Shown piece by piece: positions 1 to 18,286 of a stretch of 64,000 nt of DNA; the first letter of the stretch is position 1, and every line of letters begins with the position of its first letter. Position numbers and translations under genes: made by a program. This stretch comes from Streptomyces sp. NBC_00102 (lineage in GTDB: Bacteria; Actinomycetota; Actinomycetes; Streptomycetales; Streptomycetaceae). The DNA is taken from contig NZ_JAPEMC010000001.1 of the NCBI RefSeq assembly GCF_026343115.1, forward strand, positions 4,173,501 through 4,237,500, written 5' to 3'. The notes below the pieces were generated by a model. It saw only the letters and a program-made list of their open reading frames with translations. It was not told where the DNA came from and searched no databases.

Positions 1-326
1 TTGCCTCCGAGCCCCAGCGCGGTGGCCCAGACCCGCAGGTCGCCCCGGCCGGTGGCCGCGTTGGACGGGCCGATGCCGTCCATGGAGACGCCCACCCGGT
101 GTGCGGCGCGCGGGAGTTCGCCGTACGGCAGTCCGAAGACGGTGGCGCGTCCCGCGGTGGGCCGGGCGAGGCCCAGCAGCATACGCAGGGTCGTCGTCTT
201 GCCGGCTCCGTTGCGTCCGAGAAGTCCCACGACCCTGCCGGACGCGACCCGGAAGGAGACGTCCTCGACGGCGGTCACTTCGCCGTACCGCTTGGTGAGG
301 CCCTCGACCTCGACTACGTCGGTCAT
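1..326 (-). CDS. ABC transporter ATP-binding protein (N-terminal part, cut by window edge)
   Basis: The first 108 residues of an ABC ATPase are visible and the rest lies left of the window. The start is ATG at 326. A Walker A motif GRNGAGKTT lies at residues 37-45, preceded by the usual beta-strand block and an aromatic Tyr at residue 14. The Q-loop region is partly visible. Its start is 2 nt from the stop of the small membrane protein at 329-526, so the two are probably co-transcribed. Next to a RiPP cluster, export or self-protection of the mature peptides is the likely job, but this is inferred from position only. Confidence 0.85.
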   Translation of the reverse strand, partial: MTDVVEVEGLTKRYGEVTAVEDVSFRVASGRVVGLLGRNGAGKTTTLRMLLGLARPTAGRATVFGLPYGELPRAAHRVGVSMDGIGPSNAATGRGDLRVWATALGLGG

Positions 327-805: not shown

Positions 806-985
806 TCAGGTCGCGACGACGACCGACGTGATGACCAGCGAGGCGTAGGTGGTGCTGACGGCCGCCGACACTCCGAAGCTGACCAGGAAGCTGTTCCACC
901 AGTCGGGGGCGTCCATGCCCTCCAGCTCCTCCATGTCCAGTTCCTGCATGGCCAGTTCGAGAGCCGAGTTGTTGTTCTCCTGCAT
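806..985 (-). CDS. mpaA: Daptide-type RiPP precursor peptide 1
   Basis: A 59-residue peptide. The ATG at 985 has ribosome site GAGGTG; an in-frame GTG at 994 lies inside that site and is less likely. The N-terminal part is acidic and leader-like, with MQELDMEELEGMDAP at about residues 13-27. The following core is hydrophobic and begins with DWWNSF. It ends in VVVAT, so the C-terminal residue is Thr, the residue converted in daptides to a dimethylated propanediamine end group. Leader layout and ending match the second peptide at 1081-1269. The class assignment rests on the neighbouring dehydrogenase, aminotransferase and methyltransferase. Confidence 0.8.
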   Translation of the reverse strand: MQENNNSALELAMQELDMEELEGMDAPDWWNSFLVSFGVSAAVSTTYASLVITSVVVAT

Positions 986-1080
986 TGCTTTCACCTCAAT
1001 CTCTGTGTGGGTACCGCGTGGGACGTACGGGGATCGCGCTCGGCCGGGGGCGGCCCGGTGGGCCGGACCCGGGGAGTGGA

Positions 1081-1269
1081 TCAGGTGGCCAGCGTGATCA
1101 GCGAGACGTAGGAAACGACCGCGCCCGCGCTCAGACCGCCGACGAAGCTGAGGACGTCGCTCCAGCCGAAGGGCGCGTCGAGCGCCTCCAGCTCCTGCAT
1201 GTCCAGCTCGTGCGCCTCCAGCTCCTGAAGAGCCAGCTCCAGAGGGGCCTTGGTGTCCGTGTTCTGCAT
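1081..1269 (-). CDS. mpaA: Daptide-type RiPP precursor peptide 2
   Basis: A 62-residue peptide starting at ATG 1269 with a strong AAGGAGGAG ribosome site. It has an acidic leader with two MQEL/LQEL-type repeats and the boundary motif EALDAP (residues 27-32). The hydrophobic core begins FGWSDVLSF and ends LITLAT. The leader resembles precursor 1 closely and the core has diverged. Ser/Thr and small residues are common, but there are no Cys residues, which argues against lanthipeptide or sactipeptide classes. Having two precursors behind one enzyme set suggests a two-peptide or multi-product system. Confidence 0.8.
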   Translation of the reverse strand: MQNTDTKAPLELALQELEAHELDMQELEALDAPFGWSDVLSFVGGLSAGAVVSYVSLITLAT

Positions 1270-1311
1270 GGGTTCTCCTCCTTCCGAGGTGTTGATCTCC
1301 TGGTGGTGCGC

Positions 1312-1331
1312 CCGCCGGCGGGTACCGGCGG
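1312..1331 (-). other. Small hairpin between dehydrogenase and precursor genes
   Basis: Seven-base arms CCGCCGG and CCGGCGG flank a 6-nt loop in the 131-nt gap between the dehydrogenase stop (1401) and the precursor 2 start (1269). It could act as a processing or attenuation point that sets the precursor-to-enzyme ratio, or be a chance GC-rich repeat. No T-run follows it. Confidence 0.3.
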
Positions 1332-1400
1332 AAGTCTGCGGGTGAGGGGCCTCACCGCGAGGGCCGCCCGGGGGCAGGGGCTCCGCCGCGGGGGCCGGCC

Positions 1401-2606
1401 TCAGGACGGGACCGGGGTGCGTACCGCCTCCGTCAGCGCCGCGCGGACGTCGGGCAGCGCCAGCGCGCCGAGGGTCGGCAGCCCGTCGCCCCAGGCCCGC
1501 ATGGTGGCGCGGGCCACCTCCGCGGTCCGCTCGGGCGTGGCGTTCAGCCCGCGGGCGATGGACCAGTCGTCCAGCAGTGCGGTGATGCCCTCGACCGGGT
1601 CCTCGGGCGTCGGCACCGACCGCCCCTCCGCGACCGCCCGCCAGAGCCGGGCCAGCCGGGACGCCGAACCCCACCGGGTGTCGCCGTCCGCGATCCGCCG
1701 CCACAGCGGCGGCAGCAGGGCGGCGGCGGCCGTCATCTTCCGGACCCCGAGGGCGGTGGAGAGCTCGTTGGCGAGATACCAGCCCTTGCAGGCGGCGGGC
1801 TCCCGGCCGAGGTTGAGCCACTGCTGATGGCTCAGCCCGCTCAGTTTGGCGATCTCCAGCCGCAGGGTGTCGTCGGCCGCGCCCCCGGTCGCCCGTACGT
1901 CCGCCACCCGGTCGCCGAGGCCCACCAGCAGCCCCAGCAGCGTCCGGGCGAAGGCGTCCTCCACCGGCAGCTCCCGGTGGTCGCCCGCGTACATCCCGGA
2001 GAGCCGGAAGAAGACCTCCAGCACCCCCTCGGCGAGGAGTTCGAGCGGCAGCGTCCGGGTGGCCGCCGGGTCGTAGACCGCCACCTCGGGCTGGAGCCCG
2101 TTGCCCAGTACCAGCCGCTTGCCGGTGGGGGTGGCCAGGCAGACCGCACCGCTCAGCTCGCTGCCCGTGCCCACCGTCGTCGGTACGGTGACGAGCGGCA
2201 GACGGGGCACCGAACCCGCCGACAGCAGGATGAGCCCACTGCGGTGCCGGACCGCCAGCCGGTCGCGCACGTCCGGGTCGGAACGCAGCAGGACCGCGAG
2301 CTTCGCCCGGTCGAGAAGGGAGCCGCCGCCCACCGCGACCACCAGGTCGCTGTCGGCCAGCCGGCCGGCGAGCTCCTGGACGCCGCCCAGGTCGCCGGGG
2401 CCGGTGAGGACCACCCGCTCGGTGTCCCAGCCCGCCCAGTCCGCCCGCTCCCGCACCCGGGCCACCGCCTCGCCCTCGGCGACCGCCGAGTCCGCGAGGA
2501 CGGTGAGGCGCCGGCCCTCGTGCTGGGGCAGCCACTTGGACAGACCGTCCAGGCCGTACGCCACCCGGGTGAGCGGGTGCCTGCTGAGGCTCCAGACCAC
2601 CTCCAT
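1401..2606 (-). CDS. mpaC: Daptide-type dehydrogenase (iron-alcohol-dehydrogenase fold)
   Basis: A 401-residue protein starting at ATG 2606, overlapping the aminotransferase stop by 1 nt (TGATG). The nucleotide-binding signatures of the Fe-ADH/dehydroquinate-synthase-like superfamily are clear: VAVGGGS at 90-96 and TVPTTVGTGSE at 140-150. In daptide biosynthesis this family is thought to oxidise the C-terminal Thr side chain, leading to decarboxylation. The places where Fe-ADHs carry metal ligands (Asp/His near 195-201, and His-Gly near 290) read EVFFR and KM here, so the usual iron site looks absent. Assignment is by fold plus context. Confidence 0.78.
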   Translation of the reverse strand: MEVVWSLSRHPLTRVAYGLDGLSKWLPQHEGRRLTVLADSAVAEGEAVARVRERADWAGWDTERVVLTGPGDLGGVQELAGRLADSDLVVAVGGGSLLDRAKLAVLLRSDPDVRDRLAVRHRSGLILLSAGSVPRLPLVTVPTTVGTGSELSGAVCLATPTGKRLVLGNGLQPEVAVYDPAATRTLPLELLAEGVLEVFFRLSGMYAGDHRELPVEDAFARTLLGLLVGLGDRVADVRATGGAADDTLRLEIAKLSGLSHQQWLNLGREPAACKGWYLANELSTALGVRKMTAAAALLPPLWRRIADGDTRWGSASRLARLWRAVAEGRSVPTPEDPVEGITALLDDWSIARGLNATPERTAEVARATMRAWGDGLPTLGALALPDVRAALTEAVRTPVPS

Positions 2607-3901
2607 CAGACGGCCCCCGCCCCCGCCGCGGCGCCGACTGCCGCCGCGCCGGTCACCGTGTACGCGTCGATCCCGGCCCTGATGCGGAGCAGGAGTTCGT
2701 CGAGGTCCCCGTCGGTGTAGGTCAGCGCCGGCAGGATCTGCACCCCGGACACGCTGGGGTGGACCAGGGCACCGGCCCGGCGGATCGCCGCGACCAGCGC
2801 GGGGACCTCTCCCTGCGGCAGCGGTGCGCCGTCGTCGCCCGCCGCGGAGAGCCGGATCGACCGGAAGCAGCCCGCTCCGGTGGTCGCGCTCACCCGGGGG
2901 TGCCCGGCCACCAGGGCGTCCAGCGCGGTGTCCAGCCGTGCCGAGAGGCGACGGGCCGAGGCGACCGCGTCCAGCCGGCGCATCTCGGCGAGCGTGGCGG
3001 AGATCGCCGCACAGGTCACCGGGGTGCCGGCCTGCGTCTCGCCGTGGACGAGCACGTCCCCGGAGGCGTCGAAGGGTTCGGCCACGGCACGGGAGACCAG
3101 GACCGCCGCTGCCGCGCTCGTGCCGTTGGTCAGCCCCTTCGACGTGATCAGCACGTCCGGGGGAGCGGGCCACCGCTGGGAGGCGAACAGACTGCCGGTG
3201 CGCCCGAAGCCGGTGGCCACCTCGTCGGCGACCAGCAGGAACCCGTGCTTCTCGCGGAGTTCCAGCAGGGTCTCGACGTACTCGGGGGTCAGCACCACCG
3301 CGCCCGTACCGAGCACCGGCTCGACCACCACGGCGGCGATCTGCGCGCCCTGCCGGGAGGCCAGCGCGCGGATCTCCTCCGGGGCGTTCGGCGACACGTG
3401 CCGCACCAGCCGCTGGTCGACCCCGTACACCGGCTGCCCCAGGTTCTCGCCGGTGAGCGCGAACCCGCCGAAGGTCAGCCCGTGGTAGCTGTCGCGGAGC
3501 CCCACCACCAGCTTGCGCTGCCCCTGGCCGCGCAGCGCGTGGTGGTGCCGCGCCACCTTCATCACCAGGTCGTTGGCGGCGCCGCCGGAGGTGGAGAAGA
3601 TCACCCGGGCGTACGTGTCCTCGCCGGCCGCCTCCACCAGCTCCCGGGCCGCGCGCCGGGCGTAGACGTTCTCGTAGCGGAAGACGGAGAGGTACGAGGC
3701 GTCCCGGAGCGCGGCGGAAGCGGCGTCGGCGATCGCCTCGTTGCCGTAGCCGAGGTTCGCGTTCCACAGGCCGCTGGTGCCGCAGAGGAGTTCGCGGCCG
3801 TCCAGGAAACGGACCCGCACCCCGTGCGCGGAGACCGTGCAGAGCTCGTCGTCCCCGTGCAGGGCGGGTGCCTGGAGGGACGGCCAGAGTGCGTCACCCA
3901 T
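2606..3901 (-). CDS. mpaD: Daptide-type class III aminotransferase (PLP)
   Basis: A 431-residue class III (ornithine/omega) aminotransferase. The PLP-contacting Asp is in LLVADEVATGFGRTG (D226) and the Schiff-base Lys is in LITSKGLTNG (K255). SGGAAN at 105-110 forms the phosphate-binding loop. ATG 3901 overlaps the methyltransferase stop (TGATG); an in-frame GTG at 3904 is the alternative start. In this pathway it would convert the C-terminal ketone made by oxidative decarboxylation into an amine. Substrate specificity is inferred from the cluster, since the fold alone would suit many ketones. Confidence 0.82.
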   Translation of the reverse strand: MGDALWPSLQAPALHGDDELCTVSAHGVRVRFLDGRELLCGTSGLWNANLGYGNEAIADAASAALRDASYLSVFRYENVYARRAARELVEAAGEDTYARVIFSTSGGAANDLVMKVARHHHALRGQGQRKLVVGLRDSYHGLTFGGFALTGENLGQPVYGVDQRLVRHVSPNAPEEIRALASRQGAQIAAVVVEPVLGTGAVVLTPEYVETLLELREKHGFLLVADEVATGFGRTGSLFASQRWPAPPDVLITSKGLTNGTSAAAAVLVSRAVAEPFDASGDVLVHGETQAGTPVTCAAISATLAEMRRLDAVASARRLSARLDTALDALVAGHPRVSATTGAGCFRSIRLSAAGDDGAPLPQGEVPALVAAIRRAGALVHPSVSGVQILPALTYTDGDLDELLLRIRAGIDAYTVTGAAAVGAAAGAGAV

Positions 3902-4737
3902 CACACGCCCTCCGCTTCCAGCAGGACGTCGCGGTGTCTGGGACCGCTCGCGGGCAGGGTGTGCCGGGCGGTGATCCGCAGCCCGGCATCGGCGAGTTCA
4001 CGCTCCAGCCGCTGGGCCGGAAGGACCCGGATCGACGTGGTGAGCACCTCGATCCGGTCGGCCGTCGCGGCCTCCGCCGCAGGCGGCAGGATGGTGACGC
4101 GCCGGGCGGGGGCGCCCTCTGGCCAGTGCTCGATCATCCGGTACCTGCGGCCGCTGGCCCCCTGGCCCTCGATGTCGAGGTCGGTGGCGCGGGCGGACTC
4201 GTCCTCCGGGTCCACCATGTCCACGGTGGAGAGCAGGAACCGCCCCCCGGGTGCGAGATGGGCCCGCACCGAGGCGAACAGCCCGGCCCGGCCCGCGTCG
4301 TCGAGCAGCGACACCGAGGTGGTGCCGAGCACCACGAGCCCGAAGGTGCGGCCCAGCTCGAAGGCGGCCATGTCGCCCTGCACGGGAACGCACCGGGCCC
4401 GCAGCCCCGCCGGAGCCGCCGCGAGGCGCTCCCGCAGCAGGTCCAGCATCTCGGCCTTGAGTTCCAGTGCCGTCACCCCGCGGCCCAGCGCGAGCAGCGG
4501 AAGTGTCAACCGGCCCGAACCGGAAGCGAGTTCCAGCACCGGCCCGGTCACCGCCCGCGCCACCCGCAGCACTTCGCGGATCTCGCTGGTGTCGGCCGCG
4601 GCGAGGTCGTGGTAGACGGGGGCGCCGACCGCGTCGTAGAGGTCGTGCAGCACCACCCGGTCGCCGTACCCGGCCAGTACCTCACCGGCGAGTCCGGGCG
4701 GATACTGCCGAGTTGCCGCTGTCACTGTCGTGGTCAC
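3901..4737 (-). CDS. mpaM: Daptide-type SAM-dependent N-methyltransferase
   Basis: A 278-residue class I methyltransferase with motif I VLELASGSGRL at about 67-77 and motif II acidic residue in TALELKAEM. The start is GTG 4737, whose GTGA overlaps the stop of the upstream recognition-protein gene. The expected role is mono- or dimethylation of the new C-terminal amine, giving the dimethyl-propanediamine group typical of daptides. Very tight overlap on both sides indicates translational coupling. Confidence 0.8.
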   Translation of the reverse strand: MTTTVTAATRQYPPGLAGEVLAGYGDRVVLHDLYDAVGAPVYHDLAAADTSEIREVLRVARAVTGPVLELASGSGRLTLPLLALGRGVTALELKAEMLDLLRERLAAAPAGLRARCVPVQGDMAAFELGRTFGLVVLGTTSVSLLDDAGRAGLFASVRAHLAPGGRFLLSTVDMVDPEDESARATDLDIEGQGASGRRYRMIEHWPEGAPARRVTILPPAAEAATADRIEVLTTSIRVLPAQRLERELADAGLRITARHTLPASGPRHRDVLLEAEGV

Positions 4738-5882
4738 GCTCCTGCCACCTCCGCCGGCGTCGCCCCGGGCCGAGTCTCCGGAAGCAGCGGGACGCCCCGT
4801 TCGGCGAAGAAGGCCAGCACCGCCGCCACGGCCGCCTCGGTCAGCGGGGCGGGGGTGTCCTCTCCCGCCTCGGCACGCGCGTGCTCCAGGGCCGCCCCGG
4901 GGGAACCGTGCACCAGGAGCCGTTCGGCGATCCCGGCCGCGGGGCGGCCGAGCCGGAAGGTCCGGTCGTGCCCCGGTACGCGTACGTACGCGGCCTCCGG
5001 AGTCCAGGCCAGGAAGGGCGCGCGCGGGTCGTCCGCGTCGTGCGGTCCGTCCACCGTGTCCAGCGAGGGCACCAGCCGGCCGCCGAACCCGGAGACCCGC
5101 ACATCGGTGACCCCGTGCACATGGAGGTCGCGCAGTACGTCCAGCGCGGCCATGTACCGCGCCAGCCAGGGGCGTTCGGCCGTCCGTGCGGCGCGCTGGT
5201 CCTCCGGCACGGCCGAGGTGAGAGAGAGCGGGGCGCCGGTCGCGTCCCCGGTGGCGAGTGCGGCCCACCGTGCGTCCAGCTCGGCCGCCGCGTCGCCCAC
5301 CACACCCAGCGGTGCGCCCTGCGGGGACACGGACACGCTGCCGTCGGCGGCCACCCAGAGCCGGGTGCCGGGACCGTCACCCGTCTCCCCGCTGCCCAGC
5401 GCGGGAAGGTCCGCGAGCTGGACCGCGGGGCTCACCGCGAAGGCGGCGAACTCGCCCTCCAGCCGGGCCCGGTCGGCGTCCGCGAGGAACGCCTCGAAGT
5501 CCGTCTCGCCGGCCACCCGGACGAGCGTGGTGCCCAGCAGGGACATGTACGGGCTGGTGCCGTAGTCCTGCACCTGAAGGAAGAGGACGCCGCCGATCGA
5601 GGCGTCGCCGCCCGGCTCGCTGAGCGAGCCCTCGAAACCCACCACGACGGCGCCCGACTCGTGGGACGCCTCGGAGGTTTCGGCGGACTCGTGCGTTCCC
5701 ACCGGGACGAGCACCAGGGAGCGCGGCCCGACCACGTCCGAGGCGAGCAGAGCCGGCAGGTGCGCGGCGTCCTCCAGGACCACGGTCGCGGTACCGCCCC
5801 CCGGGACGTCGCCCAGCAGCCGGCGTCCGGTGACCCAGGACCGCAGATGCAGACCGGCACGGCCGATCAGAGCCTCATGCAC
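4734..5882 (-). CDS. mpaB: Daptide biosynthesis RiPP recognition-type protein
   Basis: A 382-residue protein with no catalytic motif that I can see. It starts at GTG 5882 and overlaps the upstream oxidoreductase gene by 8 nt. In known daptide clusters a protein of this size and position is described as the RiPP recognition partner that works with the dehydrogenase. I assign it by position and size, not by a motif. It is acidic and Ala/Gly/Val-rich with no membrane segment, so cytoplasmic. It probably binds the acidic ELD/ELE leader of the precursors. Confidence 0.6.
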   Translation of the reverse strand: MHEALIGRAGLHLRSWVTGRRLLGDVPGGGTATVVLEDAAHLPALLASDVVGPRSLVLVPVGTHESAETSEASHESGAVVVGFEGSLSEPGGDASIGGVLFLQVQDYGTSPYMSLLGTTLVRVAGETDFEAFLADADRARLEGEFAAFAVSPAVQLADLPALGSGETGDGPGTRLWVAADGSVSVSPQGAPLGVVGDAAAELDARWAALATGDATGAPLSLTSAVPEDQRAARTAERPWLARYMAALDVLRDLHVHGVTDVRVSGFGGRLVPSLDTVDGPHDADDPRAPFLAWTPEAAYVRVPGHDRTFRLGRPAAGIAERLLVHGSPGAALEHARAEAGEDTPAPLTEAAVAAVLAFFAERGVPLLPETRPGATPAEVAGA

Positions 5883-6855
5883 GGGTTTCCCTCCGATCGG
5901 CGCCGACCGCCGTGAGAATCTTTTTCAGATCTTCCATGGCGGCCTTCGGGCCATAGAGATTGGCGACGCCGGTCAAATTGAGGACGATTTCGTCGACCCC
6001 GGCGATGCGGTATTCATCGAGTTGTTTGACGACGCTGTCGAGATCCCCGTGAATGAATGCACCGGCATCGGCCATGAGTCGCCCCGCCGATTTGGGGTCC
6101 ATCGTCGAGTAATCGATTCCCGCTTTGCCCAGCATGTCGATGTAATGCGGGGCCACCATGTGCCCGGAATTGCTGGAGAGTACGAAATCGGATACGTCCC
6201 GTCCGGGGCGCTCCAGTGCCACGGGCACCATCGCCGTCACCTTCGGCTCCGCCCGGCCCGCCGAGTCGGCGCCCTCGCGCAGCGCCGGGCGCACCACCCC
6301 GTCCAGGTAGGCGGCGGGTGTCAGCCACGTGATCGCCGCGTCCGCGACCTCGCCCGCCAGCCGCGCCATGCCGGGGCGCAGGACCCCGAGCCCGAGCTGG
6401 ACCTCCGGTGACATGACCGGTCCCATCTGGGCGTGGCAGCTGTAGAAATCGCCCTTCACCTCGACGATCCCGCCGCCCAGCAGTTCCCGCACGATCGTCA
6501 GGTACTCCCTGACCGCGCCGAGCTGACTGCGGTAGGGAGCGCCCAGCAGGCTCTGCTGGAACGTCTTGCCACCAGGGCCGAAACCGGCCAGCACGCTCTC
6601 GCCGGTCGCCATCGCCAGGGACTTGACCAGGTGTGCGGCCTCGAAGGGGTGCCGCAGGGGCATCAAGGTGACCCCGAGACCCGTCGGGACCCGGAATCCC
6701 GCACCCGCCACGGCGGAGAAAGTCTGGAAAGGCTCCATCAGAAGGCTCTGTCCCTGCCAGAGTCTCCGGGCTCCCGTCCATTCGACCAGAGCCGCATAGG
6801 GCAGCACTTGTTCGGTGCGTCGCGGCAGAAAAGGAATCAGTACGGAATAGTCCAC
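5875..6855 (-). CDS. LLM-class (luciferase-like) flavin/F420-dependent oxidoreductase
   Basis: A 326-residue luciferase-like TIM-barrel protein starting at GTG 6855 behind a GGGGGGCGAG ribosome site. Family signatures include RVPTGLGVTLMPLRHPFEAA near 55-74, which lies on the cofactor side, and LAGFGPGGK near 89-97. It is the first gene of the RiPP operon, as it overlaps the recognition-protein gene by 8 nt. LLM enzymes use FMN with a reductase, or F420. Its substrate is unknown. Either an extra oxidation or reduction of the peptide or help in the decarboxylation is possible. Confidence 0.75.
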   Translation of the reverse strand: MDYSVLIPFLPRRTEQVLPYAALVEWTGARRLWQGQSLLMEPFQTFSAVAGAGFRVPTGLGVTLMPLRHPFEAAHLVKSLAMATGESVLAGFGPGGKTFQQSLLGAPYRSQLGAVREYLTIVRELLGGGIVEVKGDFYSCHAQMGPVMSPEVQLGLGVLRPGMARLAGEVADAAITWLTPAAYLDGVVRPALREGADSAGRAEPKVTAMVPVALERPGRDVSDFVLSSNSGHMVAPHYIDMLGKAGIDYSTMDPKSAGRLMADAGAFIHGDLDSVVKQLDEYRIAGVDEIVLNLTGVANLYGPKAAMEDLKKILTAVGADRRETRA

Positions 6856-7241
6856 GTCTTCTCGCCCCCCTTCGTAATGTGCTGGATAGTTTCACGGAGC
6901 CACTGGTTCCGGGGAGGGGGTGCTGTTGCAGCTTCATGCACCGGACCGCTGCAGCAAGTTGCATTTCCTTCGCCGGTGGTTTTGCCGCTGATCAGAGGCC
7001 CTGCCGTGGGGCGTACCGCGAGCTCTGTCGGGCGCGGGGTGCGGGGTGGGGGGTGGGGGGTGTGTGGTGCGGGACCCCGGGGCGCCGAGGGCGGCGGGCG
7101 CCGGGGGCGGCAGGGGTGTGCGCAACCCGGACGGACCCCCTGCGGGCCGCCCGCACACGGTCCAGAATCGGAGACAAAATTGTTGACAATCCTGTTGGCC
7201 TAGATTTAGCGTCGACAAGCACTCACTCAGGGAGGGCACGA
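6856..7241. other. Divergent intergenic region between RiPP operon and gntR
   Basis: This 386-nt gap must hold promoters for the minus-strand RiPP operon and the plus-strand gntR operon. On the gntR side there is a palindromic site at 7179-7190. A G-rich low-complexity tract lies at about 7032-7062. I see no convincing ORF. A GCTG-TTG-CAGC dyad at 6922-6932 lies upstream of the RiPP operon and may be regulatory. Confidence 0.5.
7179..7190. promoter_or_regulatory. Predicted GntR operator overlapping the gntR -35 box
   Basis: ATTGTTGACAAT has perfect 5-base arms (ATTGT/ACAAT) and contains TTGACA (7183-7188), a consensus -35 hexamer. The same core, TTGTTGACAA, recurs before the transporter gene at 11636. 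Overlap with the -35 box suggests repression, including autoregulation by the adjacent GntR protein. Confidence 0.6.
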
Positions 7242-7892
7242 ATGCCGAAGGAAGCCAGTCCGGGCAGCGGGGAGCAGGCCAAGCAACTGGCCCTGTCCCG
7301 GCTCCGGCAGGCGATTCTGCGGGGCGAGATGGCACCGGCCCAGCGGCTGGTGGAGAACGAACTCGCCGAGCAGTTCGGTGTGACACGGGCCAGCATCCGT
7401 GCGGCGTTGATCGATCTCGCCGCGGAGGGGCTGGTGGAGCGGATCCGTAACCGCGGGTCCCGGGTGCGCGTGGTGACCGTGGAGGAGGCGGTGGCCATCA
7501 CCGAGTGCCGCATGGCGCTCGAAGGCTTGTGCGCGGCCAAGGCGGCGGTCCTGGCCACCGAGGCGCAGCGCGAGGAGCTGACCCGCCTGGGCGATTCGAT
7601 GGCCAAGGCGGTGGCGGAGGGCGATCCCCTCACCTACTCCGAGCTGAACCATCAACTGCACACCTGTGTGCGGGAGTTCTCGGGTCAGCGGACCGCCGTG
7701 GAGCTCCTGGAGCGTCTCAACGGACAACTGGTGCGCCACCAGTTCCAGTTGGCCTTGAGACCTGGTCGTCCCCAGCAGTCCCTGAGTGAACACCTGGCCA
7801 TGATCGAGGCGATCGTGGCCGGGGAGCCGCAGGCGGCGGAGCAGGCCGTCCGCGCCCATCTCAGCAGTGTGATCGACGTGTTGCGCGACTGA
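7242..7892 (+). CDS. GntR-family (FadR/FCD-type) transcriptional regulator
   Basis: A 216-residue regulator. The N-terminal winged helix spans about residues 14-75, with the hallmark LAEQFGVTRASIRAALIDLA. It is followed by an all-helical FCD effector domain in which His residues of NHQLH and EHLAM are probable metal or ligand contacts. ATG 7242 has ribosome site GGGAGG. It is 51 nt from the first catabolic gene and probably heads that operon. Shared operators at 7179 and 11635 make it the likely repressor of both aromatic catabolism and uptake, with a pathway compound as inducer. Confidence 0.9.
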   Translation: MPKEASPGSGEQAKQLALSRLRQAILRGEMAPAQRLVENELAEQFGVTRASIRAALIDLAAEGLVERIRNRGSRVRVVTVEEAVAITECRMALEGLCAAKAAVLATEAQREELTRLGDSMAKAVAEGDPLTYSELNHQLHTCVREFSGQRTAVELLERLNGQLVRHQFQLALRPGRPQQSLSEHLAMIEAIVAGEPQAAEQAVRAHLSSVIDVLRD

Positions 7893-7943
7893 CCCGGGTG
7901 TCCGGCGGGCCGGTGGCGCACCCGCAGCGAAGGAGATCCGAGC

Positions 7944-8693
7944 ATGACCCCAGCCAACGTGCCCGCCCCCGCCCGGTCGACACTCGTCGTCACCGCGCAC
8001 GCCGGAGACTTCGTGTGGCGGGCCGGGGGCGCCATCGCCCTGGCCGCCTCGCGCGGCGAGAAGGTCACCATCGCCTGCCTGACCTACGGCGAACGCGGCG
8101 AGTCGGCCCGGGCCTGGCGCGAGGGCAAGGCGCTGGACGAGATCAAGGCGATCCGCAGGGACGAGGCCGAGCGTGCCGCGGCCGTCCTCGGCGCCGAGGT
8201 GCGCTTCCTCGACGCCGGCGACTACCCCCTGCTGGTCACCCCGGAACTCACCGACCGGCTCGTCGGGATCTACCGCGAGACCCAGCCCGACGTGGTGCTC
8301 ACCCACCCGCTGGAGGACCCGTACAACGGCGACCACCCGGCCGCCGCCCGGATGGCGCTGGACGCCCGGGTGCTGGCCGGGGCCATCGGCTACCCGGCCC
8401 CCGGCGAGGTGCTCGGCGCCCCGCCGGTCTTCTTCTTCGAGCCCCACCAGCCGGAGATGTGCGGCTTCACCCCCGAGGTGCTGCTCGACATCACCGAGGT
8501 TTTCGACACCAAGCGCGCGGCGATGGAGTGCCTCTCCGCGCAGGCCCACCTGTGGGAGTACTACACCGACCTCGGCAAGCGGCGCGGGGTGCAGCTCAAG
8601 CGGAACGCGGGCCCCAACCTCGGCCTGGCGTCGACCACGTACGGCGAGGCGTACATGCGCCCGTACCCGCAGGTGACGGGGGAGCTGGCATGA
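7944..8693 (+). CDS. galB: PIG-L-fold 4-oxalomesaconate hydratase-like enzyme
   Basis: A 249-residue protein of the PIG-L/LmbE fold. The usual deacetylase metal motif HPDDE is replaced by TAHAGDFVWRAGG (residues 17-29), the form I associate with GalB, the 4-oxalomesaconate hydratase of gallate degradation. HPLEDPYNGDHPAA supplies the second metal-binding part. The start is ATG 7944 with an AAGGAG site. It overlaps the aldolase gene by 4 nt (ATGA). With its neighbours it would hydrate 4-oxalomesaconate to 4-carboxy-4-hydroxy-2-oxoadipate. Confidence 0.78.
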   Translation: MTPANVPAPARSTLVVTAHAGDFVWRAGGAIALAASRGEKVTIACLTYGERGESARAWREGKALDEIKAIRRDEAERAAAVLGAEVRFLDAGDYPLLVTPELTDRLVGIYRETQPDVVLTHPLEDPYNGDHPAAARMALDARVLAGAIGYPAPGEVLGAPPVFFFEPHQPEMCGFTPEVLLDITEVFDTKRAAMECLSAQAHLWEYYTDLGKRRGVQLKRNAGPNLGLASTTYGEAYMRPYPQVTGELA

Positions 8694-9400
8694 GCGGCGT
8701 GATCGTCACCAACCCCCCGAAGGCGTCCCTGCGTGACGCCGACGCGCTGGCCGGGTACGGCGTGGCCACCGTGCACGAGGCCCTCGGCCGCACCGGCAGT
8801 CTCGGCCCCGCGCTGCGCCCCGTCCAGCAGGGCGTACGGGTCGCGGGCACCGCCGTCACCGCGCTCTGCTGGCCCGGCGACAACCTCATGATCCACGCGG
8901 CGGTGGAGCAGTGCGGCGAGGGAGACATCCTCGTCGTCACCACCACCTCCCCCTGCACGGACGGCCTGTTCGGCGAGCTCTTCGCCACCGCGCTCCAACG
9001 CCGCGGAGTACGCGGCCTGATCACCACCACCGGGGTGCGCGACACCGGGGAACTGCGCGCGATGGGCTTCCCCGTCTGGTCGAAGGCCGTCTGCGCGCAG
9101 GGCACCGTGAAGGCCACCGGCGGATCGGTCAACGTCCCCGTCGCGATCGAGGGGCGGATCGTCCGGCCCGGCGACATCGTCCTCGCCGACGACGACGGAG
9201 TGATGTGCGTACCGCGCGAACGAGCCGCCGAGGCCGTCGAGGCGTCCGCCGCGCGCACCGCGAAGGAGGAGGCGTCCCGGGCGGCCTTCGCCGAGGGGCA
9301 GTTGGGCCTGGACCGGTACGGCCTGCGCGGGACGCTGGAACGGCTCGGCGTGGTGTACCGGTCGTACGAGGAGCACCTGCGCGACGGAGCGGCACCGTGA
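8690..9400 (+). CDS. galC: 4-carboxy-4-hydroxy-2-oxoadipate aldolase / oxaloacetate decarboxylase (RraA-like)
   Basis: A 236-residue RraA/HMG-CHA aldolase-family protein. Characteristic stretches are LITTTGVRDTGELRAMGFPV in the middle and VLADDDGVMCVPR near residue 165, which carries the metal-site acidic residues. It cleaves 4-carboxy-4-hydroxy-2-oxoadipate into pyruvate and oxaloacetate, the last step of gallate or protocatechuate 4,5-cleavage. It overlaps galB by ATGA and the tautomerase gene by GTGA, so all three are translationally coupled. Confidence 0.85.
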   Translation: MSGVIVTNPPKASLRDADALAGYGVATVHEALGRTGSLGPALRPVQQGVRVAGTAVTALCWPGDNLMIHAAVEQCGEGDILVVTTTSPCTDGLFGELFATALQRRGVRGLITTTGVRDTGELRAMGFPVWSKAVCAQGTVKATGGSVNVPVAIEGRIVRPGDIVLADDDGVMCVPRERAAEAVEASAARTAKEEASRAAFAEGQLGLDRYGLRGTLERLGVVYRSYEEHLRDGAAP

Positions 9401-10536
9401 CCGTCCCCGAGGAGGTGCCGTGCATGCTGATGCGGGGCGGCACCTCCAAGGGGGCCTACTTCCTCGCCGGTGACCTCCCGGACGCACCCGCCGAGCGGGA
9501 CGACCTGCTGCTGCGGGTCATGGGCAGCCCCGACCCGCGCCAGATCGACGGCCTCGGCGGGGCGCACCCACTGACCAGCAAGGTCGCCGTCGTCTCACCC
9601 TCGGACCACCCCGACGCTGACGTCGACTACCTCTTCCTGCAAGTCGCCGTCGACGAGCCGGTGGTGAGCGCGCGTCAGAACTGCGGGAACCTGCTGGCGG
9701 GCGTCGGCCCGTTCGCCGTCGAACGCGGACTGGTCCAGGCCGGGGCCGACCGCACGACGGTCCGCATCCGGATGGTGAACACCGGGGACCTCGCCGTCGC
9801 CGGCTTCGCCACCCCCGACCGGCGCGTCGACTACGCCGGTTCCACCGTGCTCTCCGGGGTGCCGGGGGCGGCCGCCCCGGTGGTGGTCGAATTCCCGCCC
9901 GGAGCAGGCGCGTTGCTGCCCACCGGACGGGTCCGCGACACCGTCGCGGGGACCCCCGTCACCTGCGTGGACAACGGCATGCCCACCGTCCTGATCGCCG
10001 CCGCCGACCTCCGGGGCACCGGGATCACCGGCTACGAGACCCCGGCCGACCTGGAGGAGAACACCGCCCTGGCGGCCCGCCTCCAGGAGATCCGGCTCGC
10101 CGCCGGCCCCCTCATGGGGCTCGGGGACGTATCCGGCGCGACCGTCCCCAAACTCAGCCTGCTCGCCCCGCCGGCGGACGGCGGAACGGTCACCACCCGC
10201 ACCTTCATCCCGGTCCGCTGCCACACCTCCATCGGGGTGCTGGGCGCGGCGAGCGTCGCCGCCGGGCTGCTGGTCCCCGGCAACGTCGGCGAGAGCGTCG
10301 CCCGGCTCCCGACGGACGGGGGGCCGGTGCGCATCGAGCACCCCACCGGATTCCTGGACGTCGCGGTCTCCGTGACCCCCGGCGGGGACGGCGGGGAACC
10401 CGGAGTACCCGTGGCCGGCCGGACCGCCGTGGTGCGCACCGCCCGGAAGATCTTCGACGGAACCGTTTTCGCGCGGCCCCGTGACCCCGCACCCACACCA
10501 TCCCCCGCTCCCGCACCCCTCAGGAGGCTCCGATGA
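9397..10536 (+). CDS. galD: PrpF-family isomerase, probable 4-oxalomesaconate tautomerase
   Basis: A 379-residue PrpF/diaminopimelate-epimerase-fold protein with the family opening CMLMRGGTSKGAYF. The two half-domain signatures around QNCGNLLAGVGPFAVE and CHTSIGVLGAASV carry the catalytic Cys residues. In this operon the expected reaction is keto-enol tautomerisation of 4-oxalomesaconate before hydration by GalB. GTG 9397 overlaps the aldolase stop and the gene ends in an ATGA overlap with the dioxygenase gene. The C-terminal tail is Pro/Arg-rich. Confidence 0.82.
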   Translation: MTVPEEVPCMLMRGGTSKGAYFLAGDLPDAPAERDDLLLRVMGSPDPRQIDGLGGAHPLTSKVAVVSPSDHPDADVDYLFLQVAVDEPVVSARQNCGNLLAGVGPFAVERGLVQAGADRTTVRIRMVNTGDLAVAGFATPDRRVDYAGSTVLSGVPGAAAPVVVEFPPGAGALLPTGRVRDTVAGTPVTCVDNGMPTVLIAAADLRGTGITGYETPADLEENTALAARLQEIRLAAGPLMGLGDVSGATVPKLSLLAPPADGGTVTTRTFIPVRCHTSIGVLGAASVAAGLLVPGNVGESVARLPTDGGPVRIEHPTGFLDVAVSVTPGGDGGEPGVPVAGRTAVVRTARKIFDGTVFARPRDPAPTPSPAPAPLRRLR

Positions 10537-11483
10537 CCCCGCCGCTCGGCGACATCGCCCACCTCGGCCACGTCGAACTGCTCACCCCGGACCTCGACGC
10601 CAGCGTCGACTTCTTCACCCGGATCCTCGGGCTGACGGAGAACGGCCGCTCGGGCGACTCCGTGTACCTGCGGACCTTCGACGACTACGAGCACCACAGC
10701 CTCGTCCTCACCGCCCACGAGCTGCCCGGTGTGCGCCGGACCGCCCTGCGCGCCTCCAGTCAGGAGGCGCTGGGCCGCAGGGTCGAGGCGCTCGAAGCCG
10801 CCGGACGCCCCGGCCGCTGGACCGAGGACGAGCCCGGCATCGGCCCGCTGTACCTGAGCAGCGACCCGGACGGCCACGAACTCGCCCTGTACTGGGAGAG
10901 CGAGCACTACGTCGCACCCGAGGGGCTGAAGCCGGGCCTGAAGAACCAGCCGCAGGCCAAGCCCGCCCACGGGGTGGGGGTCCGCCGTCTGGACCACGTC
11001 AACTTCCTCGGCTCCGACGTGGCCGCCAACGCGTCCTTCACCCGGGACGTCCTCGGCGCCCGGCCCACCGAGCAGATCGTCCTCGACAGCGGCAAGCTCG
11101 CCGCCCAGTGGCTGACCTTCACCAACAAGTCGTACGACGTCGTCTACACCTCCGACTGGACGGGCTCCAGCGGCCGGCTGCACCACATCGCCTTCGCCAC
11201 CGACACCCGCGAGGACATCCTGCGCGCGGCCGACATCTGCCTCGACAACGACGTGTTCATCGAGACCGGCCCCCACAAGCACGCCATCCAGCAGACGTTC
11301 TTCCTGTACGTCTACGAGCCCGGCGGCAACCGGATCGAGCTCTGCAACCCGCTCACCCGGCTCGTCCTCGCCCCCGACTGGCCGCTGATCACCTGGACCG
11401 AGGCCGAACGCGCCAAGGGCCAGGCGTGGGGCCTGAAGACCATCGAGTCCTTCCACACGCACGGCACGCCGCCGGTCGCCTGA
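10533..11483 (+). CDS. Type I extradiol (catechol 2,3-dioxygenase-like) ring-cleavage dioxygenase
   Basis: A 316-residue two-domain vicinal-oxygen-chelate protein, close to the 307 residues of XylE. The iron ligands of the C-terminal domain are visible: His155 in RRLDHVNF, His217 or His218 in LHHIAF and Glu269 in NRIELCNP. It should open a catecholic ring next to the hydroxyls using Fe(II) and O2. It sits last in the GalBCD-like operon, where a type II (LigB-fold) enzyme would be normal. Its true substrate (gallate-like or another catechol) cannot be told from sequence. Confidence 0.85.
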   Translation: MTPPLGDIAHLGHVELLTPDLDASVDFFTRILGLTENGRSGDSVYLRTFDDYEHHSLVLTAHELPGVRRTALRASSQEALGRRVEALEAAGRPGRWTEDEPGIGPLYLSSDPDGHELALYWESEHYVAPEGLKPGLKNQPQAKPAHGVGVRRLDHVNFLGSDVAANASFTRDVLGARPTEQIVLDSGKLAAQWLTFTNKSYDVVYTSDWTGSSGRLHHIAFATDTREDILRAADICLDNDVFIETGPHKHAIQQTFFLYVYEPGGNRIELCNPLTRLVLAPDWPLITWTEAERAKGQAWGLKTIESFHTHGTPPVA

Positions 11484-11497
11484 CGGCCGGCCAGTAC

Positions 11498-11532
11498 GGC
11501 GGGGGCGCGCCGCGGCACGGTGCGCCCCCGCC
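11498..11532 (+). terminator. Terminator of the catabolic operon
   Basis: Perfect 11-base arms GGCGGGGGCGC and GCGCCCCCGCC flank a 13-nt loop, 15 nt after the dioxygenase stop. A second GC hairpin (arms GCCCGCC/GGCGGGC, 11541-11559) follows directly, so termination may be two-step. Confidence 0.65.
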
Positions 11533-11634
11533 GCACACCCGCCCGCCCGGTGGGCGGGCTCCGAGGCGCGCCCCAGCAGCCCCGGGCGGCCTCCCGCGCC
11601 CCCGGAATCCGGACGTGGCCCGATTGTTCCTGAG

Positions 11635-11679
11635 ATTGTTGACAAAAACGTTGACACTCAACGGGTGCGTTTCTACCGT
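11635..11679 (+). promoter_or_regulatory. Transporter promoter with GntR-type operator
   Basis: ATTGTTGACAAA (11635-11646) repeats the operator seen before gntR. A second TTGACA at 11651-11656, 12 nt on, is followed after 17 nt by TACCGT (11674-11679), a plausible -35/-10 pair. The transporter start is about 100 nt downstream. The operator next to the -35 fits repression by the GntR protein at 7242-7892. Confidence 0.55.
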
Positions 11680-11777
11680 CTTGCCATCCGGGTCGCCGCG
11701 CCGCCGTACCGCCGCACCGACCCACGTCCCCCGCCCAGCTCCGGAGGCTCTCAGCGCTCCGGACGAGAGGAACAACG

Positions 11778-13118
11778 ATGTCCTCCTCCACCGCCCTGTC
11801 GCCACGCGGCAGAAAACTCGCGTTGCTGGTCGTCGGCCTGTGCTGGCTGGTCGTCCTCTTCGACGGCCTCGACATGTTCGTCTACGGCGCCGTGCTGCCC
11901 CACATGCTGGAGCACCACGCGCTCGGGCTGAAGCCGTCCATGGCGGGCGACCTCGGCAGCTACGCCACCTTCGGGATGCTGATCGGCGCGCTGTCGGCCG
12001 GCACGATCACCGACTGGGTCGGCCGCAAGAAGCTGATCATCGTCTGCACCGCGGTCTTCTCGCTGGCCTCCGCCCTCTGCGCGGTGGCCGGTTCGGTCGG
12101 GGTCTTCGGGCTCGGGCGCTTCATCGCCGGAGTGGGGCTCGGCGGTCTGCTGCCGGTCACCATCACCCTGGTCTCCGAGTACGCCCCGCGCGGCCGGGGA
12201 GCGATCATCGTCGGCACTCTGATGACCGCCCACCAGGCGGGCGGCATCGTCTCCGGCTTCATCGGCCTGTGGACCGGCGGAGAGAACGGCTGGCGGATCG
12301 CGTACTGGATCTGCGTGGTCCCGCTCTTCATCGGCGTTCCGCTGGTCTGGAGGTTCCTGCCCGAGTCGATGAGCTTCCTGCTGGCGAAGGGCCGCGACGA
12401 GGAGGCCGCCGAACTGGCCCGCCGGTTCGACGTGGACGTGCCCGCCGCGAAGGCCGACCGCCCGGCCGCCGGTGAGCGCTGGGACGCGCTGGTCGCCCTC
12501 TTCCGCGGCAACCTCTGGCGCCGCACGCTGCTCTACTGGCTGACTTCCTTCGGCGGCCTGCTCCTCGTCTACGGCGTCAGCAACTGGCTGCCCACGATGA
12601 TGCGCGGTGCCGGGTACGAACTCGGCTCCTCCCTCTCGTTCGTGGTCATCATCAACGCCGGCGGCATCGTCGGCATGCTGATCGCCGGCCGGTTCTCCGA
12701 CCGCTTCGGCGCGCTCCGCGTCGCCGCCCTCTGGTTCGCCCTGACCGCCGTCGGGGTCTACCTCCTCGGCATCCACATGGCGCTGCCGCTCACCTACACG
12801 GTGGTCTTCCTGACCGGCCTGTTCCTCTTCAGCGCCCAGGCCATGGTCTACGCGGCCGTCGCGGGCGACTCCTCCGACGACAACCGCGCCACGGCCGTCG
12901 GCTGGACCAGCGGAATGGGCCGCTTCGGCGCCGTCTTCGGCCCCTGGCTCGGCGGACAGCTGGTCGCGGGAGGCGCGGAGGACTGGGGCTTCACCGCCTT
13001 CGCCATCACCGCGGTGTTCGCCACGGTCATGCTCTGCCTCACCGGGCTTCGCCCCGCGAAGCACACCGACGCCGCGGGCGGCGCGGGTACCGCCCAGCCG
13101 CTCACCGCGGCGGGCTGA
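11778..13118 (+). CDS. MFS aromatic-acid:H+ symporter (AAHS/PcaK-like)
   Basis: A 446-residue, 12-helix major facilitator. The AAHS hallmark is in helix 1, LFDGLDMFVYGAVLPHM (Asp-Gly-x-Asp), and the loop 2-3 motif DWVGRKK follows. Uptake of an aromatic acid by proton symport is the family role. Its own promoter carries the same operator as gntR, so it is probably induced together with the ring-cleavage operon. It is most like PcaK/BenK-type transporters, and the substrate is inferred from the neighbouring enzymes. Confidence 0.85.
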   Translation: MSSSTALSPRGRKLALLVVGLCWLVVLFDGLDMFVYGAVLPHMLEHHALGLKPSMAGDLGSYATFGMLIGALSAGTITDWVGRKKLIIVCTAVFSLASALCAVAGSVGVFGLGRFIAGVGLGGLLPVTITLVSEYAPRGRGAIIVGTLMTAHQAGGIVSGFIGLWTGGENGWRIAYWICVVPLFIGVPLVWRFLPESMSFLLAKGRDEEAAELARRFDVDVPAAKADRPAAGERWDALVALFRGNLWRRTLLYWLTSFGGLLLVYGVSNWLPTMMRGAGYELGSSLSFVVIINAGGIVGMLIAGRFSDRFGALRVAALWFALTAVGVYLLGIHMALPLTYTVVFLTGLFLFSAQAMVYAAVAGDSSDDNRATAVGWTSGMGRFGAVFGPWLGGQLVAGGAEDWGFTAFAITAVFATVMLCLTGLRPAKHTDAAGGAGTAQPLTAAG

Positions 13119-13145
13119 CGCCCCGGACGACGGCCTTCGGGCGCC

Positions 13146-13224
13146 GGTCTGAGGTGCGGCGGTCTGAGGTGCGGCGGCCTGAGGTGCGGCGGCCTGAGGC
13201 GCGACGGTCTGATGTGCGGCGGCC
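13146..13224. repeat. Five tandem 15-bp imperfect repeats
   Basis: Units of the form GGTCTGAGGTGCGGC repeat five times (13146-13220), with a short sixth start. They lie between the convergent transporter and metalloprotease genes. Fifteen-base periodicity keeps one frame open but there is no start or ribosome site. It is probably slippage-prone filler, possibly acting as a 3' structure. Confidence 0.7.
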
Positions 13225-13236
13225 ACCGGGTCCGGA

Positions 13237-14514
13237 TCAGGAACGGGTGATCCGGACCCGGTACTCGCCCTCCGCGTCCTCGCCGAGCACGGCGACCCGG
13301 ACGCCGTTGACCCGGTCGGTGAAGGTCTCGCCAGGCTGGAACGGCGCGTCCGAGAGCTCGGCGTGCACATTGGGCCTGCGGGTGCAGCCGCCGCTGTCAC
13401 CGGTGCTGTCCGCGACGGAGACCGGACCCTGGCCCGTCTCCACGTCCGAGTCGACCTGGTAGATCAGCACCCCCGGCCGGCAGACCGCCTCGTCGTTCCC
13501 GGCGGGGGTGCGCACCTCCATGACGTACCCGGAGTCCTCGCTCAGCGGGACGACCGCGAGCTTGGTGCCACCGGTGGTCTCCAGCGGTTCGAGCGTGTGC
13601 TCGCTGGTGCCGGGCTCCGAGGCGCAGGTGATCTGCCCGTTGTCGAGCCAGCCCAGCTTCCACTTGTGCCAGCCGAGGAAGTCGTTGTTGGCCCCCCAGT
13701 CCTCGGACATGATGTCCCAGTGCCCGACCGAGCCGCCGCCCTCCGCGGTGTAGAGGTCGGGAAGGCCGAAGACATGGCCGTTCTCGTGCGGGAGCACCCG
13801 GTACCCGGTCCGGGCGTAGGAACCCGAACCGTCGTCCTGGCGGCTGTAGACGAACGAGGTGTTGGCCAGCGGTACCCCGTCCGCGCGCGGCGCCTCCTCG
13901 TTGTCGGGGAAGGTCACCGACAGCACGGTGTCCAGCGCCGAGGGGCCCGCGTTCGGCGTGACCAGCACGTTGACCAGGTCGTACGCGGAGAAGTCCACCC
14001 GTGCGTCGGCGGCCTTGACGATGTCCGACACCAGCTGCCGGTAGCCCGGTTCGTACGGGGAGCCGCGCTCTATCCCGTAGTCGGCGAACGGCATCGGCAT
14101 CCGCAGCCAGCCCTTCACCGGGGCCTCGGGCACGTAGACCAGCCGGCCGTACGAGCTGCGGCGGAACCAGTCGGACGTCTGCGGGAAGAACTCCGCCATC
14201 CGGTCCGCGGCGGTCCCGCTGCCCTGCGCGTCCGGGAAGTCGATCATGAGGTTCAGGGCCCGCACCCTGCCGGTGGAGCGGGCGTACCCGGGCGGTGTCG
14301 GCATGCCTTCCGACATCTGCACGCCCAGCGCGGCGGATATCCGGCACGGGCCGAGCGCGGACTCCTGACTGAGGGACGCCGGTCCCGCCGAGACCCGGTT
14401 CGCCTCCGGGAGAGCGGTGCTCGCCGACGCCAGAGCGGCGATGACCAGCGCGGTCGCCCCGGCGAGAGCGAGCGGGCGGCGACAGCTGCGTATCCCTCGG
14501 CGAGGGTGCTGCAT
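13237..14514 (-). CDS. Secreted M6 (immune inhibitor A-like) metalloprotease
   Basis: A 425-residue protein from ATG 14514, which has a GGAGG site 8 nt upstream; a GTG at 14535 is in frame but has no good site. A basic stretch followed by a hydrophobic segment and an Ala-rich cleavage region in the first 40 residues forms a signal peptide. The zinc motif is PHENGHVFGLPD (HExxH), with the downstream M6-type HWDIMSEDWG block. It should be exported and act on extracellular protein. It is convergent with the transporter and not linked to the catabolic block. Confidence 0.85.
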   Translation of the reverse strand: MQHPRRGIRSCRRPLALAGATALVIAALASASTALPEANRVSAGPASLSQESALGPCRISAALGVQMSEGMPTPPGYARSTGRVRALNLMIDFPDAQGSGTAADRMAEFFPQTSDWFRRSSYGRLVYVPEAPVKGWLRMPMPFADYGIERGSPYEPGYRQLVSDIVKAADARVDFSAYDLVNVLVTPNAGPSALDTVLSVTFPDNEEAPRADGVPLANTSFVYSRQDDGSGSYARTGYRVLPHENGHVFGLPDLYTAEGGGSVGHWDIMSEDWGANNDFLGWHKWKLGWLDNGQITCASEPGTSEHTLEPLETTGGTKLAVVPLSEDSGYVMEVRTPAGNDEAVCRPGVLIYQVDSDVETGQGPVSVADSTGDSGGCTRRPNVHAELSDAPFQPGETFTDRVNGVRVAVLGEDAEGEYRVRITRS

Positions 14515-17510: not shown

Positions 17511-17589
17511 TTCCGTTCCGGCTTCCTTCCGCCGGGTCGAGCCGCTGTCGCCCCGGCCCGCCCGGATGCGGCGCCTCAGGTCGTCCGTC

Positions 17590-18093: not shown

Positions 18094-18114
18094 GAACCCA
18101 CTGTACGACCTTTC

Positions 18115-18171: not shown

Positions 18172-18286
18172 AAGCTGTCGCGCGGGAGGGTTCTCCCGGA
18201 GCCGGAGCGGCCCCGGGACGTCTCCGGGAGCCGGAGCGGGTCCACCCGAGGAGAATCGTCACCAGCCGCAGCGGATGGGGAGTGCC

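Follow-up and report, generated by a model that had tools for sequence, protein, structure and literature searches.

Association of a GT2 glycosyltransferase with core tyrosines suggests glycosylated daptides in a Streptomyces gene cluster

The 64,000-nucleotide stretch of Streptomyces sp. NBC_00102 analysed here (the window, positions 4173501-4237500 of contig 1 in a genome of 8.6 Mb) holds at 806-6855 two precursor genes and a run of five enzyme genes that overlap one another. They belong to a cluster for daptides, small membrane-active, ribosomally synthesized and post-translationally modified peptides (RiPPs) in which an amine replaces the acid end, the C-terminal Thr becoming a dimethylated propanediamine (Dmp). 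The daptide genes are all on the minus strand, and the cluster continues past the left window edge into the stretch L007, which makes it longer than the first-pass annotation had stated. The added genes include LanKC and, adjoining it, a GT2 glycosyltransferase (GT). The daptide class itself is known; the added part is this GT, with the tyrosine glycosylation that the comparisons suggest for it. Tyrosine O-glycosylation is suggested by the co-occurrence of the GT, a core Tyr and rml-type genes for deoxythymidine diphosphate (dTDP) sugars, and by the kinship of the GT with those of the cacaoidin cluster, a joint pattern that points to both acceptor and sugar. On balance we lean slightly towards the reading that RiPP tyrosine O-glycosyltransferases occur in the GT2 subfamily common to daptide clusters and cacaoidin, and that this cluster makes glyco-daptides, two helical peptides each combining a cationic Dmp end, D-alanines and a Tyr-linked deoxysugar.

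Both precursors end in Ala-Thr and carry an ELD/ELE leader and a DAP boundary, as the first-pass annotation had read from the translations. The predicted cores are DWWNSFLVSFGVSAAVSTTYASLVITSVVVAT for DapA1 (32 residues, after ELEGMDAP) and FGWSDVLSFVGGLSAGAVVSYVSLITLAT for DapA2 (29 residues, after ELEALDAP). The annotation had called the locus a daptide-type RiPP cluster and had named a lack of daptide-specific profile matches as evidence to the contrary; the profile comparison gave such matches for both precursors (NF041808, cut-off 25; DapA1 33.4 bits, DapA2 25.0 bits) and for five enzymes (bits/cut-off: DapC NF041822 485/300, DapD NF041821 635/450, DapM NF041820 317/175, DapB NF041823 401/150, DapP NF041824 479/300). 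The narrower precursor models MpaA1, MpaA2 and MpaA3 are passed by neither precursor (highest 20.5 of 40), and Pfam has no match for DapB or the precursors and gives only common folds for the other enzymes. The precursors recur at the corresponding place in related clusters (L050, L008, L009 and others), where at least two related precursors per cluster are the usual situation, and many of their relatives already carry the NCBI name daptide-type RiPP. The sequence features of actinobacterial daptides are all present, namely an ELExMEAP-like leader, a hydrophobic core, the invariant C-terminal Thr, DapB, the DapC, DapD and DapM families, an intramembrane protease and an ATP-binding cassette (ABC) exporter. 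The cluster almost certainly belongs to the daptide class.

The GT accompanies daptide clusters in Streptomyces, Frankia and other genera. DapB lies above cut-off in 24 of the 392 genus genomes sampled and in 17 of 394 class genomes (G000 and G013 are in both sets), and in two further families in 5 of 35 genomes (all in the class set) and 7 of 250 (two in the class set); scoring here was confined to the top first-look candidates of each genome. A pattern scan of the named genome contigs gave 10 loci. With the DapB and GT samples of 392 taken as identical genome sets, the GT is found at E 1e-30 or better in 16 Streptomyces genomes, that is in 14 of the 24 with DapB and 2 of the 368 others (G335, G390). 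Outside the genus sample it stands beside daptide genes in G650, G651, G450, G465, G511, G910 and G877. It also occurs in the genomes of L008 (two pieces), L009 (Frankia, identical with G650), L014 and L015, and G457 and G471 have weaker matches on other contigs.

Comparison of the GT with core tyrosines showed a close association. The 43 clusters with readable precursors comprise 23 with the GT and 20 without; one or more cores contain a Tyr in all 23 of the former and in 2 of the 20 latter. Every GT-bearing cluster has at least one Tyr at position 8-14 counted from the C-terminus, and here the Tyr stands in TTYAS of DapA1 (13th residue from the end) and VSYVS of DapA2 (9th). A control over all 20 residues in the first 40 clusters gave p values of 1.9e-9 for Tyr, 0.0016 for Asp and 0.034 for Asn, descent being ignored. 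On a quick tree of DapB, DapC, DapD and DapM the GT changes five times, and four independent pairs on supported branches give a Tyr agreement of 3.3 on average with zero disagreement. Left out of the 43 were the second locus of G125 (L072, pieces of DapB and DapJ only), G147 (split contigs, precursors missing, GT present), G500, G457 and G471 (precursors not found), G820, G931 and G883 (DapC and DapD, or precursors, not found) and G443, G677, G771 and G883 (sub-threshold DapB). The loci L010-L013, L016 and L017 were taken as those of G278, G257, G377, G125, G147 and G125 and counted once, and the GT-less clusters G083b and G377a were scored by neighbourhood, their genomes holding the GT beside another daptide cluster. 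A broader database pairing covered 68 contigs, drawn from the 120 precursors (of 585) and the 120 GTs (of 170) among the matches listed. A core Tyr is seen on 18 of the 21 contigs with a listed GT, the other three showing one Tyr-less precursor each; it is also seen on 25 of the 47 without a listed GT. These 47 are not true negatives, as the listings are capped and each protein cluster is represented by its longest contig, and two of them appear to be the GT-bearing contigs of G048 and G295.

Several side observations concern the same clusters. In the alignment, the cores of GT-bearing clusters resemble GT-less cores with an insertion of about 10 residues near the C-terminus that bears the Tyr. 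Two GT genes are present in L051/L095 (G152) and L015/L121 (G395, S. cacaoi), and one core in each has two Tyr (GYIS and TYSI/TYSV); the correspondence is imperfect, since a core with two Tyr also occurs in other clusters in which one GT was found. The broader pairing includes Tyr-bearing, possibly GT-less clusters with cores like ...GYGSYVAS.... In L072 (G125) and L188 (G931), pieces of DapB and DapJ occur with the other daptide enzymes unmatched in the stretch read; these are probably decayed daptide clusters. Two further associations were tried and rejected. A strict link of the GT with LanKC and DapJ fails on the GT-bearing G450, G465 and G511, where neither LanKC nor DapJ was matched over the stretches compared, and on the many GT-less clusters that have both genes. 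A link of the GT with Trp, as in NAI-112, fails as Trp is present in 43 of 43 clusters.

A functional pointer comes from cacaoidin. In S. cacaoi the GT query matched, at E 1e-20, not only genes of the contig with the daptide cluster but also two GT2s, at C2:487690 and 497591 (40 and 42% identical), in a region that carries the cacaoidin precursor and genes. Cacaoidin has been located on the NBRC 12748 contig BJMM01000002.1; Cao8 and Cao16 are GT-2 enzymes and the cacaoidin Tyr bears a deoxysugar disaccharide, and the parts of the paper available to us do not establish which Cao GT glycosylates the Tyr (PMC8068269; this paper, PMC10036551 and PMC12338566 are cited throughout from parts of their texts). 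Gene order would place Cao8 and Cao16 at L120:7621-8772 and 17537-18634, and Cao12 at 12312-13262. In a quick tree that included 9 of the 22 other GT2 genes of this genome (those with long enough pieces), the daptide GTs, the two Cao GTs and the GT of G390 form one group (SH-aLRT 96), with branching inside it poorly supported in places. The reverse search with Cao8 recovers several GTs of the first search (P0038, P0040, P0063 and others); GTs of Nocardia, Nocardiopsis and others are closer. The GT of G390 is followed by RmlA- and RmlB-type genes (together L091 8422-11621) at a locus that lacks daptide genes, so the GT subfamily is not confined to daptides. The motifs D-H-D-D and E-D-W-D are kept in 50 aligned homologues (of 120 listed). 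The predicted fold of the homologue P0015 (91% identical, pLDDT 94) is that of a GT-A glycosyltransferase, and the nearest solved folds include AvpGT, with the TDP-rhamnose-binding RmlT within the best 50; this likeness is weak support, at the level of the fold. If the tyrosine reading is true, it points to Cao8 and/or Cao16 as the tyrosine glycosyltransferase of cacaoidin.

Genes for dTDP-sugars follow the GT in part of the clusters. With the cacaoidin-region dTDP-glucose 4,6-dehydratase (RmlB type) as query, together with RmlA and RmlD, and with flanks of comparable length (some cut by contig ends in both groups alike), 12 of the 23 clusters with the GT vs. none of the 20 without have an RmlB-type homologue no further than 20.5 kb from DapB (Fisher 9.6e-5, descent ignored). 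An RmlA-type gene accompanies all 12 (two at only 37-39%) and an RmlD-type gene seven. Nine of the 12 have their sugar genes on the LanKC side, 11-16 kb away, and the other 3 have them on the DapJ side. This genome has RmlB-type genes elsewhere, 57% and 51% identical, so the sugar donor could come in trans.

The D-alanine part of the prediction rests on LanKC and DapJ. LanKC is full-length (NF038151, 851 bits with a cut-off of 575), and DapJ shares 49% identity with the cacaoidin-region LLM reductase. DapA1 has six core Ser and DapA2 five, and the cores average 4.07 Ser in the 36 clusters with LanKC vs. 0.84 in the 7 without (per-cluster p 4e-5, descent ignored). The features of the D-alanine subtype of daptides, LanKC and LanJC homologues with Ser-rich, Cys-free cores, are thus all found, and the cluster is very probably an actinobacterial daptide cluster of this subtype. 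LanKC and DapJ fit the published route from Ser to D-Ala, in which LanKC would phosphorylate and eliminate core Ser to give dehydroalanine and DapJ would reduce this to D-Ala; D-Ala is highly likely to be present in the product.

Several of the results weigh against the glyco-daptide reading or parts of it. Scoring for the GT took in the top five first-look candidates of each genome, so that its absences are not exhaustive. Two GT-less clusters of one group (G616 and G756, at a guess Microbacteriaceae-like) have a core Tyr at about residue 13-14 counted from the C-terminus, and compound 1 of the characterised daptide cluster of Microbacterium (mpa) also contains Tyr, with no sugar described in the available parts of PMC10036551. 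Core Asp is likewise enriched (15 of 23 clusters with the GT vs. 3 of 20 without), and the Tyr/GT pattern is not significant on the tree, on which only four independent pairs are available. No sugar genes were found in the flanks read of 11 of the 23 GT-bearing clusters, nor in this genome, where the flanks read extend from DapB for 28.8 kb on the LanKC side and for 58.7 kb on the other, the DapJ side. DapA2 scores exactly at the NF041808 threshold, and the best NCBIfam match of DapJ (TIGR03564, 116 bits) is below its cut-off of 234. The reaction steps would follow those of published homologues, and the product is a predicted one. For sca, the cluster of Streptomyces capuensis NRRL B-3501, the available parts of PMC10036551 report the product with no mention of a sugar and do not establish the GT or core-Tyr status.

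These points bear on the alternatives to different degrees. A plain sca-type daptide, with Dmp and D-Ala and with a GT that is inactive or acts on lipid, cell wall or in self-protection, is a serious if doubtful possibility: the sca product, the missing local sugar genes and the dispensability of the GT gene, which is absent nearby in 20 of 43 clusters and persists in G335 without daptide genes, all speak for it. However, the GT tracks daptide clusters and core Tyr across Streptomyces, Frankia and other genera, its D-H-D-D and E-D-W-D motifs are kept in the 50 homologues aligned, and its kin include two GT2s of a cluster for a Tyr-glycosylated RiPP. It is unlikely that the GT glycosylates the peptide at Ser, Thr, Trp or the N-terminus with Tyr as a lineage marker of longer cores. 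The cores of GT-bearing clusters are indeed longer (mean 30.7 vs. 22.6 residues) and the Tyr lies in the extra stretch, while a sugar on Trp has a precedent in NAI-112 (PMC8068269) and core Trp is present in every cluster here. However, Trp, Ser and Thr are present with and without the GT and so do not track it, whereas Tyr does, also in the separate clades of G450/G465, G511 and G377b/G122, and the Tyr enrichment (44 of 1565 core residues with the GT vs. 5 of 1608 without) exceeds what length alone explains.

The class assignment itself has two further alternatives, both rejected. The full-length LanKC could mark the locus as one for a class III lanthipeptide, the neighbouring genes being unrelated to it, which is very improbable: Cys is present in none of 122 cores across the 43 clusters, neither core here has a Cys for lanthionine or labionin rings, so that a lanthionine ring is impossible, and daptide-specific DapB, DapC, DapD, DapM and DapP are in the operon. 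The enzyme folds are common enough for a dehydrogenase, an aminotransferase and a methyltransferase of ordinary metabolism, next to two short open reading frames (ORFs) that arose by chance; this explanation is still more remote, as the daptide-specific curated models are passed, the precursors recur in related clusters, and the generic models among the matches listed (best 25 shown for the aminotransferase) are all below their cut-offs.

In the preferred reading, the Dmp and D-Ala steps would be those of the published homologues. The RRE-bearing DapB was required for oxidative decarboxylation in the work of Ren et al. (PMC10036551), and in both M. paraoxydans and T. fusca the oxidative decarboxylation is the joint work of DapB and DapC, after which DapD transaminates and DapM dimethylates (PMC10036551, PMC12338566). 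The recognition domain of DapB would here bind the acidic leader and hand the peptide to DapC, which with NAD+ would oxidise and decarboxylate the C-terminal Thr to an aminoacetone; DapD would transaminate the aminoacetone (Lys is the donor in T. fusca) and DapM would dimethylate the amine. Conversion of the C-terminal Thr to the (S)-Dmp end that characterises daptide products is predicted from gene content. The DapC residues aligned to the metal ligands of YqhD, which we take to be Asp194, His198, His267 and His281 in identity and numbering, are all changed (E197, R201, W276 and K290). Because of these changes DapC is predicted to be metal-independent like TfDapC, which is active without added metal and whose ligand positions are reported as changed (PMC12338566). 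The GT next to LanKC would glycosylate the core Tyr, with a dTDP-derived 6-deoxyhexose as the likeliest sugar. That the GT acts on a daptide tyrosine is judged probable; that the sugar is a deoxyhexose is put forward more tentatively. DapP would cleave after the ELExxxxx motif (...DAP here), and DapT1 and DapT2 would export the 32- and 29-residue peptides. By analogy with mpa, the mature peptides would form helices and act on membranes, perhaps in cooperation.

Of the published relatives seen, sca is the nearest, with the daptide enzymes and LanKC/LanJC present as here; S. capuensis is not among the organism names listed for the matches. The sca product carries both Dmp and D-Ala, and conversion affects five Ser of ScaA2 (PMC10036551); DapA2 here also has five core Ser. 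The mpa cluster of Microbacterium paraoxydans, which its authors selected because its modifying enzymes are primary ones only, shares DapB, DapC, DapD, DapM, DapP, the transporter and precursors with C-terminal Thr, and its precursors are cleaved after a conserved Pro (PMC10036551). The tfDap (Thermobifida fusca) and saDap (Streptomyces azureus) clusters share DapBCDMPT1T2 with this cluster, and tfDap also has DapKC and DapJ, as here; unlike this cluster, the two encode a YcaO (DapY), which forms an imidazoline (PMC12338566). A YcaO model was not seen among the matches listed for the 14 cluster proteins scanned. Of the four actinobacterial clusters characterised in PMC10036551 and PMC12338566, two are from Streptomyces (S. 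capuensis and S. azureus), which contradicts, for characterised clusters, the earlier remark that most described clusters come from other Actinobacteria. Cacaoidin of S. cacaoi, a lanthidin, has GT2 kin, an LLM reductase related to DapJ, D-amino acids and a glycosylated Tyr (PMC8068269), and the single Tyr of the CaoA core stands in TIYASVS, comparable with TTYASLV of DapA1. However, cacaoidin is not a daptide: it has Cys, lanthionine, aminovinyl-methylcysteine (AviMeCys) and other dehydration proteins, and the core Cys and AviMeCys that characterise lanthidins (class V lanthipeptides) have no counterpart in the Cys-free cores here.

The first-pass annotation had also suggested two products or a two-component agent. 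Because several precursors per cluster are usual, two precursors are weak evidence for such an agent, although the mpa daptides are termed synergistic hemolysins (PMC10036551). Its enzyme set of dehydrogenase, aminotransferase and methyltransferase was correct as far as it went but incomplete, DapB, DapJ, DapT1/T2, DapP and LanKC having been missed.

A total of 1,034 daptide clusters have been predicted (PMC12338566). Glycosyltransferases have been listed with the secondary genes of daptide clusters by Ren et al., in passages that give neither acceptor nor sugar (PMC10036551). Words starting with glycosyl do not occur in the text of PMC12338566, and a literature search at title and abstract level, with daptide papers examined in part, found no glycosylated daptide. 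If true, the reading would combine three rare modifications (Dmp, D-Ala and Tyr-sugar) in one peptide, offer a route to glycosylate poorly soluble membrane peptides, and give a substrate rule for a peptide-tailoring enzyme together with a lead on the Tyr-modifying GT of cacaoidin.

The layout of the locus is given in Table 1. The enzyme genes overlap by 1 nt (DapC/DapD), 4 nt (DapD/DapM), 4 nt (DapM/DapB) and 8 nt (DapB/DapJ), in agreement with the range of 1-8 nt first given. The gene block J-B-M-D-C-A-T1-T2-P-KC is kept in most related Streptomyces loci and in one Frankia; in L064-L069, DapT2 is unmatched and DapT1 unmatched or weak.

Table 1. Genes of the daptide locus (window position = L007 position minus 13500)
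Feature	Position	Strand	Match or motif
DapA1 precursor	985-806 from ATG; alternative GTG start 994	minus	NF041808
DapA2 precursor	1269-1081	minus	NF041808
DapC, predicted oxidative decarboxylase, Fe-ADH fold	2606-1401	minus	NF041822, PF00465
DapD, class III aminotransferase	3904-2606	minus	NF041821, PF00202, TSKGL at residues 254-258
DapM, S-adenosylmethionine (SAM) methyltransferase	4737-3901	minus	NF041820
DapB, RiPP recognition protein (DUF-RRE), DapC partner, 382 aa	5882-4734	minus	NF041823
DapJ, LLM-class (F420-type) reductase, LanJC-like	6855-5875	minus	PF00296
Hydrophobic, probably membrane, 65-aa protein between DapA1 and transporter	329-526	minus	ORF
DapT1, ABC transporter ATPase, first part	window 1..326, continuing left	minus	profile matches
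DapT2, ABC2-type permease	L007:13105-12359	minus	profile matches
DapP, RRE-type intramembrane metalloprotease	L007:12362-10698	minus	NF041824; HEMAHG
LanKC, complete	L007:10578-8050	minus	NF038151
GT2 glycosyltransferase (GT), adjoining LanKC	L007:8023-6959	minus	profile matches
LuxR/TrmB-type regulator, convergent to GT	L007:5964-6953	plus	profile matches

The right edge of the cluster is marked by a relative, G335, whose locus L090 matches the DNA on both sides without the stretch from LanKC to DapJ. L090 jumps from the GT (L007 about 8092) to what corresponds to L007 20667, window position about 7167, and this breakpoint falls just before a GntR-type regulator gene. G335 is not among the DapB genomes and keeps a GT that is 87% identical; the difference is probably a natural deletion of the daptide genes. 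At E 0.01 the 65-aa protein matches neither a Pfam nor an NCBIfam model, and counterparts were seen in just part of the closest clusters (L050 85%, L008 86%, L054 61%, L009 58%, L180 43%); it is a candidate immunity or transport helper. From reading of the ORFs alone, the plus strand at window positions of about 7241-13118 carries the GntR regulator and, after it, genes resembling those for a PIG-L deacetylase, RraA, PrpF, a dioxygenase and an MFS protein. They seem to form a catabolic operon for aromatic acids that has nothing to do with the daptides.

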